NCBI GenBank assembly: GCA_013043685.1
Contig: JABDNT010000052.1
Coordinates: 1 to 64,000, forward strand
DNA: 64,000 bases
Direction of reading: 5' to 3'
From: Flavobacteriaceae bacterium
GTDB lineage: Bacteria > Bacteroidota > Bacteroidia > Flavobacteriales > Flavobacteriaceae
Part shown: piece by piece, positions 37,140 through 41,194 of the stretch
Numbering within the stretch: position 1 is the first letter of the stretch
How the letters are laid out: each line of letters starts with the position of its first letter
Translations under genes and position numbers: made by a program
The notes under the pieces: model-generated
The model's input: only the letters and a program-made list of their open reading frames with translations
Databases searched by the model: none
What the model was told of the DNA's origin: nothing

Positions 37140-38492
37140 ATGCAACCTATGTCATCCCGCGCACTTCAGGCAATTTCTCCTATCGACGGACGATACGCAT
37201 CCAAGACCCAATCCCTTGTGCCCTTCTTTTCGGAAGAGGCGCTCATCAAATACCGGGTTCAGGTAGAGATCGAATATTTCATTGCCTTGGTAGAATTACC
37301 ATTACCTCAATTGAAAGAATTCGACAGCAGTTTATTTGCCGATCTACGAAGATTGTACACTGAATTCTCTTCGGAAGATGCACAGCGTATCAAAGATACC
37401 GAGATGGTTACAAATCACGATGTAAAAGCCGTTGAATACTTTATCAAAGAAGAATTTGATGCACTGGGCCTGGAGCAATACAAGGAGTTTATCCATTTCG
37501 GATTGACGTCGCAGGATATAAATAATACCGCCATTCCCTTATCCCTGAAGGACGCCATGAACGAAGTATTCGTTCCGGGATTCTTTGAAGTGAAGGATAA
37601 ACTAAAGGAACTGGCTGGTGAATGGGCCGATGTTTCCATGCTTGCAAGAACGCATGGTCAGCCTGCATCTCCAACACGCCTTGGTAAGGAGATAGAGGTA
37701 TTTGTTGTGAGATTGGAAGAACAATTCGACTTACTTAACGATATTAAAAGTGCGGCGAAATTTGGCGGCGCAACGGGCAATTTCAATGCGCACAAAGTAG
37801 CCTATCCGGAAATTGACTGGAAGGCTTTCGGAACCGAGTTCGTACAGGAAAAACTGGGATTACATCACTCCTTTCCCACCACACAAATAGAACATTACGA
37901 CCATATGGCCGCATTGTTCGACTGTCTAAAACGTATCAACACTATCTTGATCGACCTGGACAGGGACATTTGGACCTATGTGTCTATGGACTACTTCAAA
38001 CAGAAGATCAAAAAGGGCGAGATAGGTTCATCTGCTATGCCCCATAAAGTGAATCCTATAGACTTTGAGAATAGTGAGGGGAACCTGGGTCTGGCAAATG
38101 CCGTATTCGAGCATCTTTCGGCGAAGCTTCCCATTAGTCGTTTACAACGTGACCTTACCGATAGTACCGTACTACGGAATATAGGCGTACCTATGGGACA
38201 TACCATTATCGGTTTTCAATCCACACTCAAAGGATTGAACAAATTGCTTTTGAACGAAGCCAAGTTCAAAGAAGACCTGGAAAACAACTGGGCGGTGGTC
38301 GCAGAGGCCATCCAGACCATTCTGCGACGAGAAGGCTATCCAAATCCCTATGAGGCTTTGAAGGGGCTCACAAGGACAAATGACGCGATCACCCGCGATT
38401 CCATTCAGGATTTTATCGGGACGCTGGACGTCTCAGAAGAAATAAAAGAAGAGCTTCGAGCCATTAGCCCGGCGAATTATACTGGGATTTAA
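37140..38492 (+). CDS. purB: Adenylosuccinate lyase
   Basis: PurB acts twice in purine synthesis, splitting fumarate from SAICAR and from adenylosuccinate. The 450-residue protein begins near ISPIDGRYASKTQSLVPFF, has the HFGLTSQDINNTA and ARTHGQPASPTRLGKE motifs with the catalytic His, QIEHYDHMAALFDC, and the fumarase-superfamily signature GSSAMPHKVNPIDFEN with the active Ser. Either ATG 37140 or ATG 37149 may be the start. An intrinsic terminator-like hairpin follows immediately at 38494. Confidence 0.96.
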   Translation: MQPMSSRALQAISPIDGRYASKTQSLVPFFSEEALIKYRVQVEIEYFIALVELPLPQLKEFDSSLFADLRRLYTEFSSEDAQRIKDTEMVTNHDVKAVEYFIKEEFDALGLEQYKEFIHFGLTSQDINNTAIPLSLKDAMNEVFVPGFFEVKDKLKELAGEWADVSMLARTHGQPASPTRLGKEIEVFVVRLEEQFDLLNDIKSAAKFGGATGNFNAHKVAYPEIDWKAFGTEFVQEKLGLHHSFPTTQIEHYDHMAALFDCLKRINTILIDLDRDIWTYVSMDYFKQKIKKGEIGSSAMPHKVNPIDFENSEGNLGLANAVFEHLSAKLPISRLQRDLTDSTVLRNIGVPMGHTIIGFQSTLKGLNKLLLNEAKFKEDLENNWAVVAEAIQTILRREGYPNPYEALKGLTRTNDAITRDSIQDFIGTLDVSEEIKEELRAISPANYTGI

Positions 38493-38525
38493 AAAAGGCC
38501 CGGAATTACTCAGGCCTCTTATTCG

Positions 38526-38560
38526 CGGCCTGCTCCAGTATACTTGAAGATCTCTGGCCG
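38526..38560 (-). ncRNA. Candidate structured RNA element, module C
   Basis: The diverged copy has outer stem CGGCC/GGCCG (perfect) around AGAGAT and an inner stem CTTCA-AGTATAC-TGGAG with different bases and a longer loop. A terminator follows at 38515-38497. The outer stem is the third pairing variant of the same structure. Confidence 0.4.
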
Positions 38561-38706
38561 ACTTGCCATTGTTTTGGGGATAGATAAACAAATAGCAATT
38601 CTCATGTAGTGCTAATTTATGGTTAAGCCATTGTTTATCTGGCACTTGAAATTTGGTTTTCGATAAAAAACAAAAAAGGCTCCTCGAAAGGAGCCCTAGT
38701 AGGCTT

Positions 38707-38738
38707 CGACCTATCTCATCTCGTGAGGTCTCTGGTCG
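38707..38738 (-). ncRNA. Candidate structured RNA element, module B
   Basis: The same element with outer stem CGACC/GGTCG (all Watson-Crick, extendable by a T-A pair) and the inner ACCTCA-CGAGA-TGAGAT with one mismatch. Both sides of the outer stem differ from module A yet still pair. A terminator follows at 38695-38678. Confidence 0.45.
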
Positions 38739-38887
38739 ATGGAAGGTTTTAATTGCGGGGAACTATATTAACCCCTTCCGATTGTTATATTTCAAATTAT
38801 ATTCCAAAGTGGTACAAATGATCCCGTAGCACATTGGTTTTCGACCTAAAACAAAAAAGACCCCCCGAAAGGGGCCTTTATATTCTA

Positions 38888-38919
38888 CAACCTACCTCAT
38901 CTCGTGAGGTCTCTGGCCG
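38888..38919 (-). ncRNA. Candidate structured RNA element, module A
   Basis: On the minus strand CGGCC AGAG then ACCTCA-CGAGA-TGAGGT, A, GGTTG. The outer stem CGGCC/GGTTG pairs with two G-U pairs; the inner stem has six perfect pairs. A terminator follows 12 bp further. Candidate only. Confidence 0.45.
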
Positions 38920-39081
38920 ACGGGAAGGTTATAATTGCGGGGATCTACATTATACCCTTCCAAAGTATTATACTCGAAGTTAAATCCAAAAGATTGAAAA
39001 ACAATGACTTGAAAATCTGTTTTCGACCAAAATAAAAAAAGGCCCCACGAAATGAAGCCTTTTTCCTACAATATAAATTTT

Positions 39082-39693
39082 TTAGTCTGCTATTTCATCA
39101 ATTAGCTCAGTGTTATTGTCGGTTTCACCTCCGCTTTCACTGAAAATATCACCTATACCATTTAAAGCCGATACATCGAAGTCGCCGCTATTAATTGAAT
39201 TCATTAATTTAAGCATCTGTCCCGGTTTCATATTGTCTCCCAGCAAACGGAACACCGCAAAACCTCTTTCATCATCACTTGCAAAGATGATCACTTCGTC
39301 GATCGCATCTTCTTCTCCAAGGTACTTCATCGTCATCATACTTCCGTTAGAGCTAACCTTACCTAATAACACATACTTCTCGTTATCTAGTATTTTCGCT
39401 AATTCCGCACGCTCCGCCGTATAATCTTCCGCATTCTTTCCTTTCAGGGGAAATGCTACTACATTTACTTTCTTTATCGTCTCTAAGATCTCCTTCTGTT
39501 CTTCGGTGAAATCGGCATCATCACTCTCCAGTAGACTGGTTGCTATATCCACTTTTAGGAATTTATCGTCATCCTGTTTGTCCACAAGGTATCGCTGCAG
39601 CGATGATCCGTCTGCACAGCTAACCAATGAAATTGCTGCCAGGCTTAGTCCTACAATAAATCGTACGAGTACCATATTACTGTTTGTTTTCAA
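39082..39693 (-). CDS. DUF4252 lipoprotein
   Basis: A 203-residue lipoprotein: the signal ends in LAAISLVSCADG with Cys near residue 26. The mature part is a DUF4252 domain (DKQDDDKFLKVDIATSLLES, IIFASDDERGFAVFRLLGDN, MLKLMNSINSGDFDVSAL) with an acidic C-terminus. It overlaps the end of the preceding DUF4252 gene by 17 bp and is the last gene of the ECF operon; the terminator at 39040-39060 follows. DUF4252 has no known function. Confidence 0.88.
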   Translation of the reverse strand: MKTNSNMVLVRFIVGLSLAAISLVSCADGSSLQRYLVDKQDDDKFLKVDIATSLLESDDADFTEEQKEILETIKKVNVVAFPLKGKNAEDYTAERAELAKILDNEKYVLLGKVSSNGSMMTMKYLGEEDAIDEVIIFASDDERGFAVFRLLGDNMKPGQMLKLMNSINSGDFDVSALNGIGDIFSESGGETDNNTELIDEIAD

Positions 39694-40207
39694 TTTTCTT
39701 CAACTCATCACTACCAGGTACATTCAGATCTTTAGTGAGTTTTGATATTTTCTTAAGATCGATATTACCTGTGATACTCATGATCATAGAACCTTCTTTA
39801 CCGTCAATGTCACCCTCCATGAACATAAGCAATTCACTTACATAACTTGAACTCTTGCCTTCTTTTGAGTAAAACTTGATATTCTTGCCTTCATCTTTCA
39901 CTCGCATCAATTCATTAAGACCTTTGGCAGAGCTGACATACTTCTTAACATCAGCAGTCATTCTGCTGGCGATATCGGCATTTTCTGTAACAAAGATTTT
40001 TATGTTATCCAGGTTATTCACCAGTTCCAGGTATTCTTTTACCTCAGGATCGTCACTTTCAAGATCGATCTCGGCCAATAACTTGAACATATTCTTGGTA
40101 ACCACAATTGAGGTCACATCCTTTTCACCTTCATACGAATCGAAGGTTTGAGCTGACCCGATAAAAGGCACCAGCATTACTAACATTACTATAACTAACT
40201 TTTTCAT
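39677..40207 (-). CDS. DUF4252 exported protein
   Basis: A 176-residue protein with a signal peptide (MKKLVIVMLVMLVPFIGSA then Q) and a DUF4252 domain (VVTKNMFKLLAEIDLES, LVNNLDNIKIFVTEN, ELLMFMEGDIDGKEGS). It is paralogous to the lipoprotein gene downstream, with which it overlaps. It is 20 bp downstream of the membrane anti-sigma-like gene. The exported pair probably sits in the periplasm or outer membrane and may be what the sigma factor controls or senses. Confidence 0.9.
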   Translation of the reverse strand: MKKLVIVMLVMLVPFIGSAQTFDSYEGEKDVTSIVVTKNMFKLLAEIDLESDDPEVKEYLELVNNLDNIKIFVTENADIASRMTADVKKYVSSAKGLNELMRVKDEGKNIKFYSKEGKSSSYVSELLMFMEGDIDGKEGSMIMSITGNIDLKKISKLTKDLNVPGSDELKKIENKQ

Positions 40208-40227
40208 TATTCTTGTCTTTAAGGTTA

Positions 40228-40701
40228 TTACTTTAAAATTCTGTTTTTCGTTTCTGTAAATTGATTGATATACTTAATATTCGAGGATCCTTTTGTGAAT
40301 TCGTTTAAGAAAACCACATTTTCGGTTCCTTTATTTAGGTTTGAAGAAAGCAGCATCATGGCTTCTTTGGTTTCCTTGATAGCTGCAAGAGCTTCTTGTT
40401 CTTCATCGGTCAGGCCTGAATTAGAGAATACTATACTACCTACCGTAACGGCTACCAAAAAAGTTGCGGCGATACTGTACCACCAGCCCTTGATCCTGAA
40501 TCCGGATTCCGGAAGTGTTACTTCCTTAACCGATACTTCCTCTTTGGCTTGCACGAAACCCTGGAATATAGGTGTGTATGATTCAAGATGTGCTGCTACA
40601 TTACCCTTGGTAAAATAGTCTCTCAAGGTTCCTTCTTCCGCCAGGGTGGTATTCCCTTCGAAATAAGCGTCCAATAACCTTTCAATTCTAGCTGATTCCA
40701 T
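40228..40701 (-). CDS. Membrane anti-sigma-factor-like protein
   Basis: A 157-residue protein with a cytoplasmic N-terminal domain (MESARIERLLDAYFEGNTTL, typical of small anti-sigma proteins in Bacteroidota: a helix with LLxxYFEG then EExxLxxYF), one membrane helix at about 73-93 (WWYSIAATFLVAVTVGSIVF) and a 60-residue periplasmic tail. It overlaps the sigma-factor gene by 14 bp, so production of the two is coupled. It probably holds the sigma factor at the membrane until an envelope signal releases it. Confidence 0.78.
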   Translation of the reverse strand: MESARIERLLDAYFEGNTTLAEEGTLRDYFTKGNVAAHLESYTPIFQGFVQAKEEVSVKEVTLPESGFRIKGWWYSIAATFLVAVTVGSIVFSNSGLTDEEQEALAAIKETKEAMMLLSSNLNKGTENVVFLNEFTKGSSNIKYINQFTETKNRILK

Positions 40702-41194
40702 AATTGTACTTTTTAATCATTTCTTCTCTTAATACTTTCCGAGCCCGCGATAAGGCGACACGGATGGCTGTTTCATTACTTTCGAGCATTTCGGCAATTT
40801 CTGCAAATTCATATTGCTCTACATCCCTAAGCTGAACGATCATTCGCTGTTGTTCCGGTAGGGTTTCCATAATCTGAAAAACCAGTGAAACTCCATCAAT
40901 CGCCTCTACCTTTCTTTCAACATTATCGGAATTCTGAAAATTGCTATGCACGATCTTCATATTTCCGGCTTGTTTCGATTTTAAGCGATCAAGGCAAAAA
41001 TTCTTGGTCATCGTCATCGCAAAGGCTTCAGGGTTCTTATAGTTCCCGATCTTATCCCTTCCCTTCCATAATTTCAAATAAATCTCCTGAACGGCATCTT
41101 CAGCTTCATCATTCGACACCAGCAATCTCTTAGCAAGCCGGTATAGCTTGTCTTTAAAAGGCATTACAGTAGTTAAAAACTCCTTCTGCTTCAT
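40688..41194 (-). CDS. ECF RNA polymerase sigma factor
   Basis: A 168-residue sigma-70 family protein of ECF type. Region 2 spans about 12-80 (LYRLAKRLLVSNDEAEDAVQ, EIYLKLWKGRDKIGNYKNPE, AFAMTMTKNFCLDRLKSKQA) and region 4 about 105-160 (METLPEQQRMIVQLRDVEQY, EFAEIAEMLESNETAIRVAL, SRARKVLREEM). It heads the operon sigma - anti-sigma - DUF4252 - DUF4252. A candidate ECF-type promoter lies upstream (41244-41269), suggesting self-regulation. Confidence 0.93.
   Translation of the reverse strand: MKQKEFLTTVMPFKDKLYRLAKRLLVSNDEAEDAVQEIYLKLWKGRDKIGNYKNPEAFAMTMTKNFCLDRLKSKQAGNMKIVHSNFQNSDNVERKVEAIDGVSLVFQIMETLPEQQRMIVQLRDVEQYEFAEIAEMLESNETAIRVALSRARKVLREEMIKKYNYGIS

Follow-up and report, generated by a model that had tools for sequence, protein, structure and literature searches.

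Tandem repeats between purB and a DUF4252 gene as a candidate family of small RNAs with a common promoter box in Flavobacteriaceae

What is encoded by three direct-repeat copies that stand on the minus strand between the convergent genes purB and a DUF4252 gene, in a stretch of 64,000 nucleotides from a Flavobacteriaceae bacterium (GCA_013043685.1, contig JABDNT010000052.1, positions 1 to 64,000; hereafter the window)? The Flavobacteriaceae are of marine importance and their mRNAs have no Shine-Dalgarno sites, and to our knowledge few small RNA (sRNA) families have been described in them. An earlier note on this DNA had read the repeats as a tandemly duplicated structured RNA or, alternatively, as duplicates of the 3' end of a gene. 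The reading favoured here, to which we give a probability of roughly 60%, is that of a new multicopy sRNA family whose members would be co-activated, act in trans, form a transcription unit each and base-pair through a C-rich loop.

The array extends from 38494 to 39066, with start-to-start spacings of 181 and 182 bp between its modules. The adjoining DUF4252 gene is the last of four minus-strand genes, the first of which encodes an ECF sigma factor (40688-41194); two DUF4252 genes stand behind this sigma factor (39082-41194). All modules follow one plan, in which an upstream box and a -7 box precede a predicted transcript of about 115 nt with two hairpins, followed by a terminator. In the order of minus-strand reading, the features are:

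39082-39693, minus strand: DUF4252 gene, adjoining the array upstream
39034-39066, minus strand: intrinsic terminator that ends the DUF4252 gene, immediately ahead of module 1 (terminator pattern scan)
39011-39025, minus strand: module 1 upstream box, CGAAAACAGATTTTC (box pattern)
38975-38982, minus strand: module 1 -7 box, TAACTTCG, matching TAnnTTTG but for one base and placed 50 bases from the start of the upstream box
38850-38970, minus strand: module 1 (type A) predicted RNA, start placed from the -7 box
38923-38961, minus strand: module 1 hairpin 1, UCCCCGC in the loop (repeat comparison, fold)
38888-38919, minus strand: module 1 hairpin 2, AGAG internal loop (fold, alignment)
38856-38879, minus strand: module 1 terminator (pattern scan)
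38829-38843, minus strand: module 2 upstream box, CGAAAACCAATGTGC, CGAAAAC part retained
38793-38800, minus strand: module 2 -7 region, ATAATTTG, weak match to TAnnTTTG
38670-38788, minus strand: module 2 (type A) predicted RNA
38741-38779, minus strand: module 2 hairpin 1, UCCCCGC in the loop (fold)
38706-38739, minus strand: module 2 hairpin 2 (fold)
38676-38697, minus strand: module 2 terminator (pattern scan)
38648-38662, minus strand: module 3 upstream box, CGAAAACCAAATTTC, one mismatch
38612-38619, minus strand: module 3 -7 box, TAAATTAG, one mismatch to TAnnTTTG
38490-38607, minus strand: module 3 (type B) predicted RNA
38563-38598, minus strand: module 3 hairpin 1, UCUAUCCCC in the loop (fold)
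38525-38561, minus strand: module 3 hairpin 2, type B letters (fold)
38494-38519, minus strand: module 3 terminator, abutting the purB stop (fold)
37140-38492, plus strand: purB, with Pfam domains Lyase_1 and ASL_C

Four minus-strand terminators at steps of about 180 bp had been described in the earlier note, and all four are recovered: three are returned by the pattern scan, while the fourth (38519-38494), absent from the scan, was recognised by folding, in which a 9-bp stem and a loop of 8 bases stand ahead of a stretch of T's. This last one probably serves both strands, ending purB as well as module 3. Across 37500-40000 the scan gave 8 terminator-like sites, some of them overlapping, against 1.7 +/- 1.5 in shuffled sequence. 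Each window module folds into three hairpins, namely hairpin 1 with its C-rich loop, hairpin 2 and the terminator, with folding energies only moderately below those of shuffles (z of -2.1, -2.9 and -1.7); the relative G3b, taken as a longer stretch, folds no better than shuffles (z -0.04). Throughout the family the predicted RNAs are mostly 106-143 nt long and carry two hairpins before the terminator.

The distribution of the modules was followed in a genus set of seven genomes (G000 to G006, with G000 as the source of the window) and beyond. By DNA search the region was found in six of the seven and the DUF4252 gene in all of them. One type-A module each is present in G001, G002 and G006, the last two of which are close to each other; G005 has a single module of type B, and G003 has four modules. 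G004 (locus L037) has a module that adjoins purB and is separated from the DUF4252 gene by another gene; with this module counted, all seven genomes carry the RNA. Altogether 26 modules were collected from 17 Flavobacteriaceae genomes, at 1-4 per genome; they lie between DUF4252 and purB in 16 of these, the 17th not being checkable for purB. The divergent relatives at L052 and L062 and a third divergent copy at L059 were left out of the 26. Copy numbers are three in the window, four in G003, two each at L045, L046 and L078 and at least two at L059, so that several similar copies per genome, each with its own predicted promoter and terminator, are found as in sibling sRNAs. Carriers include the type strains Ulvibacter antarcticus DSM 23424, with one module, and Aureisphaera galaxeae NBRC 110018, with two. 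Adjacent modules of the G003 array (L010, 1515-2250) end in almost the same terminator hairpin (GGCTCC-TTTC-GAGGAGCC), a likeness suggestive of a recent duplication or gene conversion within this array.

A wider search used two models of the module, R1 and R2. Of 397 sampled genomes of the family, R2 matched 16 at E <= 0.05, and eight of these are genuine as judged by box, hairpins and neighbours (G000, G001, G069, G162, G238, G284, G307, G342). The other eight (G065, G135, G181, G182, G291, G292, G294, G313) lie inside open frames of 132-665 codons and were rejected as chance. R1 matched five of the same 397 genomes, including G216 (L031, E 5e-5), which was likewise put down to chance, neither DUF4252 nor purB being alongside. 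The R2 count is a lower bound because the known positive G003 was missed, and absence in this sample is weak evidence, both for that reason and since type B is hardly seen by R2. Several matched loci had been used to build R2 (L030, L037, L038, L045, L046, L056, L059 and the window); L071, G342, G238 and G069 are finds independent of its building. No match to the modules came from phage contigs by pattern search or from plasmids by blastn.

The gene neighbourhood was surveyed by a DUF4252-family scan that named at least 43 loci, and the following counts refer to the 43 matches listed. For purB placement, this final survey supersedes a motif search that had found purB in some loci only. The two genes are convergent in 42 of the 43, and the neighbourhood is kept well beyond the genus. 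Ten listed loci are matched by the R1/R2 models (L034, L035, L036, L037, L038, L045, L046, L056, L059 and L071), four of which, L034-L037, belong to the genus; the match at L035 is weak (E 0.016). The gap, taken between the ends of the DUF4252 and purB matches, is 231-1270 bp in nine of the ten, those with purB in reach, and the stretch at hand for L071 contains no purB. At L052 and L062 the gap is 325-342 bp, and divergent relatives of the module were recognised there by eye only, R2 giving E 0.096 for L062 and no match for L052. In 31 of the 43 listed loci, DUF4252 and purB are adjacent and convergent at 60-187 bp with no module found, and the RNA is therefore a discrete unit. Thus the DUF4252-purB neighbourhood is older than the presence pattern of the RNA, which appears and disappears as a unit within it. 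A riboswitch or leader attenuator would be expected upstream of a co-directional gene under its control; module 3 instead precedes the 3' end of purB on the opposite strand.

The most conserved part of the RNA is hairpin 2, in which the internal loop CC-RGAGA.../...UA-GG is fixed while the stem covaries. In the numbering of module 1, C15, C16, G20, A21, C23, G35 and T37-T41 of the internal loop and its flanks are invariant, and G18, A19, C25, G33 and G43 nearly so. Pairing was assessed in an alignment (A9) of 22 hairpin-2 sequences, from which three type-B modules and the divergent G3c were left out. Standard pairs make up 87.3% of cells against 78.8 +/- 1.2 in shuffles, and slid versions of the alignment reach at most 49.1%. 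Changes on both sides of a pair occur in 19 cells against 6.2 +/- 2.0, a contrast to be read with the proviso that the shuffles ignore relatedness and that many double changes are few events. Further pair types are not above shuffles, 217 of 500 of which reach the count. Of the cells of the inner helix 99.1% are paired, of those of the outer helix 75.5%; the three outermost pairs fail in 7 to 10 of the 22 sequences, and all hold in the seven type-A sequences of the genus. In the alignment of these type-A sequences (n=7), 95.7% of cells pair and five pairs have changed on both sides, of which hairpin 1 holds four. All the outer stems that had been named for the three window modules are present, namely CGGCC/GGTTG, CGACC/GGTCG and CGGCC/GGCCG. 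So are the inner stems ACCTCA/TGAGGT and CTTCA/TGGAG, with the exception that the inner pairing is broken once in module 2, which reads ACCTCA/TGAGAT and therefore has one C-A mismatch. Type B keeps the design of type A in other letters.

Hairpin 1 behaves differently in that its stem changes while CCCC is retained in the hairpin-1 region of 21 of the 26 modules, against a mean of 1.7 and a maximum of 7 in shuffles; it is lacking in the other five. At L045 and L046, one tandem copy has CCCC and its sibling AGAGGAC. Such differing loops are expected if siblings have different targets.

Each module also appears to carry its own promoter. Most have CGAAAAC close behind the preceding terminator, often extended to CGAAAACNNATTTTC, with the dyad GAAAA-N4-TTTTC. 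When 25 modules (L037, with no clear box, and the repeat L094 being dropped) were aligned on the box alone, information rose again at positions 36-39 (TTGG), 43-44 (TA) and 47-50 (TTnG). The sequence TAnnTTTG is given as the -7 consensus of the primary sigma factor of Bacteroidota in the accessible parts of two reports (PMC7366714; PMC9723704). For each of 36 hand-picked sites, comprising 24 sRNA modules and 12 others, the sequence most like TAnnTTTG was located, with ties allowed; in 30 of them it ends exactly 50 or 60 bases after the start of the box, against a mean of 3.7 and a maximum of 11 in shuffles. As relatives are among the sites and the positions 50 and 60 were already known when the test was made, this figure is descriptive. 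About one turn of the helix separates the two spacings. All six defined bases match at 50, 51 or 60 in 13 of the 36 sites, and the -7 boxes of modules 1-3 of the window, from which the starts are predicted, are imperfect. The box and promoter of each module, the 5' hairpin with its C-rich loop and the presence of the box before other genes had been overlooked in the earlier note.

The same RNAs might be transcribed from sigma54-dependent (-24/-12) promoters, with the box as an enhancer site. Exact TGG-N8-TTG occurs in 12 of the same 25 modules against 0.44 (maximum 3) in mononucleotide shuffles, the spacing is that of TGG...TTGC, and rpoN is present in the genome. The C of the -12 element is found in only 2 of 25 modules, however, and the GG (-24)/GC (-12) pattern is not reproduced. 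Other genes that bear the box have TAnnTTTG or a similar site without TTGG, and the distance from the box is short and fixed, which is unusual for sigma54 enhancers. We consider sigma54 dependence improbable; a primary-sigma promoter of the TAnnTTTG type fits the modules better, if imperfectly in the window's own.

Other explanations concern what the modules do once they exist. That they arose by duplication of a protein gene's 3' end, or are small-protein genes, is hardly credible: the open frame ending RNYNLPVGQRPHEMR that had been noted does exist in module 1, but no frame is common to the modules, the longest ATG frame measuring 0-28 codons and differing from module to module across the 26, and the changes suit stems rather than codons. 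The protein-coding reading was rejected on this ground, and the absence of a conserved frame, together with two-sided pair changes above the shuffled and slid controls, bears out a tandemly duplicated structured RNA with terminators of its own. Such structures could still be functionless, duplicated terminator-like 3' ends of the DUF4252 transcript, as might be suspected from their position directly behind that gene, from copy numbers that vary from 1 to 4 and from similar terminators within one genome that point to recent duplication or conversion. We hold this to be quite unlikely in view of covariation and invariant loops across several genera, of the box and -7 box belonging to each module, and of the L037 module, which lies next to purB and is parted from DUF4252 by another gene. 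The main competitor accepts independent transcripts and has them bind a protein through the hairpin-2 loop, as sponge, scaffold or chaperone ligand, with copy number setting the dose and hairpin 1 only supporting the site. It accounts for the concentration of the family's most conserved letters in and beside the internal loop of hairpin 2, for a hairpin-1 stem that is free to change and for the five modules without CCCC. Against it stand the retention of CCCC in the other 21 despite changing surroundings and the lack of any known candidate protein, and it is judged a serious though rather unlikely account.

Under the favoured reading, that of base-pairing sibling sRNAs, an activator would bind the box CGAAAACNNATTTTC and help RNA polymerase with the primary sigma factor to start at the TAnnTTTG-like promoter about 50 bases downstream. 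The RNA of about 115 nt would end at its own intrinsic terminator and fold into hairpin 1, with a variable stem and the C-rich loop, hairpin 2, with a covarying stem and the fixed internal loop, and the terminator hairpin. The C-rich loop could then act as a seed that pairs with G-rich stretches of target mRNAs, most likely in trans, while the fixed loop of hairpin 2 may bind a protein or stabilise the RNA. The products would be siblings that share a body and diverge in their loops. Sequence comparison shows the family, its stems, loop and terminators, and the unit of box and promoter, spacing included; transcription, activation, base-pairing and any target are what we infer, and base-pairing is the weakest step of the proposal.

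To place the family among known RNAs, Rfam 15 was searched, as the earlier note had proposed with Flavo-1 in mind. No gathering-score match was found in the 64-kb window or in 11 related loci, and at E up to 10 the stretch 38300-39200 gave nothing but sub-threshold matches. Flavo-1 (RF01705) and 6S-Flavo (RF01685) are likewise structured RNAs of Flavobacteria, the one small and the other intergenic, but both reside elsewhere in the same genome (G000:C7:180-263 and G000:C37:12-119, respectively): Flavo-1 has no match in 38300-39200 even at E 10, and 6S-Flavo has none in the window at gathering score or in the array at E up to 10. A 5S rRNA gene immediately precedes Flavo-1 (L024 16-263, G000:C7).

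Sibling sRNAs are known from Proteobacteria, where Qrr, OmrA/B and the Neisseria siblings are sets of similar sRNAs that answer to one regulator, each member having a promoter and a terminator of its own. The analogy is one of design only, and no sequence relation is claimed. A precedent is offered by the multicopy mRNA-pairing sRNAs of Bacteroides. According to the accessible part of the report on FopS of Bacteroides thetaiotaomicron (PMC11697453), these are paralogous sRNAs in 14 copies of about 65-70 nt, in which a single-stranded seed at the 5' end is followed by a lone terminator hairpin, and which pair close to start codons and so repress surface-transport operons; they have primary-sigma promoters, and the authors suspect a transcriptional regulator. 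The tandem RNAs resemble them as multicopy Bacteroidota sRNAs with intrinsic terminators, primary-sigma promoters (putative for the tandem RNAs) and a suspected regulator, and differ from the FopS/GibS design so described (65-70 nt, 5' seed, single terminator hairpin) in having about 115 nt, two hairpins before the terminator and 1-4 copies in one array. Compared by description and by the Rfam 15 search, the two revealed no sequence relation. By this analogy the tandem sRNAs are expected to follow the logic of FopS, i.e. repression by pairing with mRNAs. The Rfp sRNAs of Flavobacterium psychrophilum, compared by description only, are also flavobacterial and strongly folded, and Rfp18 is reported to affect proteases, whereas no tandem family is described in the accessible part of that report (PMC9723704). 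In a literature coverage that is thin on subscription journals, no description of the sRNA family or of the box was found. Multicopy sRNAs are known as a kind; this family seems to be new, as does the box of its promoters.

The box is not confined to the array. With at most one mismatch, CGAAAACNNATTTTC occurs 108 times in the seven genus genomes, against 42 for a reversed control; 73 distinct box sites (30 loci and 40 stretches) out of the 108 were inspected, and 36 in frames of at least 150 codons were set aside. X1, a gene for a small, secreted-looking protein, follows the box in six genomes (L165, L171, L173, L175, L177, L181). The box of X1 sits within a longer inverted repeat followed by T's; this repeat may end the transcript of the gene before it, in which case operator and terminator would overlap here. 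X2 is another sRNA-like transcript, about 105 nt long and ending in a terminator, nearly identical in five of the seven genus genomes (G000:C42 (L198), L168, L170, L172, L178), with a box spacing of 60 and a folding z of -2.2; the three X2 loci scanned gave no Rfam gathering-score match. X3, whose product was named OmpA-domain-like from its letters, stands behind the box in three genomes (L185, L191, L214). A SpoIIAA-like gene (L098 1049-1477, G000:C18), assigned at 16.4 bits against a cut-off of 25, has the box too, with a -7-like site 50 bases from it. Among its orthologues, the box is exact in G001 and G002 and degenerate in G006, and it was not seen in 11 more distant SpoIIAA-like matches. 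The spacing of 39 in this orthologue survey was set by eye; the scan picks 32, which speaks against it.

These associations raise the tentative idea, one we would not yet lean on, that the box is the operator of a novel Flavobacteriaceae activator, acting at set helical faces (50/60) and commanding a surface-related regulon made up of the tandem sRNAs, X2 and the OmpA-like, secreted and SpoIIAA-like proteins. The tandem sRNAs would then be its RNA arm, their diverging loops giving the siblings targets of their own, a likeness in logic to the envelope-stress sRNAs of Proteobacteria.

For the Flavobacteriaceae, the tandem family is one whose regulator and targets can be searched for directly, since its structure covaries, its siblings stand in tandem, type strains possess it and protein genes have the same promoter box. 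The tandem family and X2 would each be a new Rfam entry.
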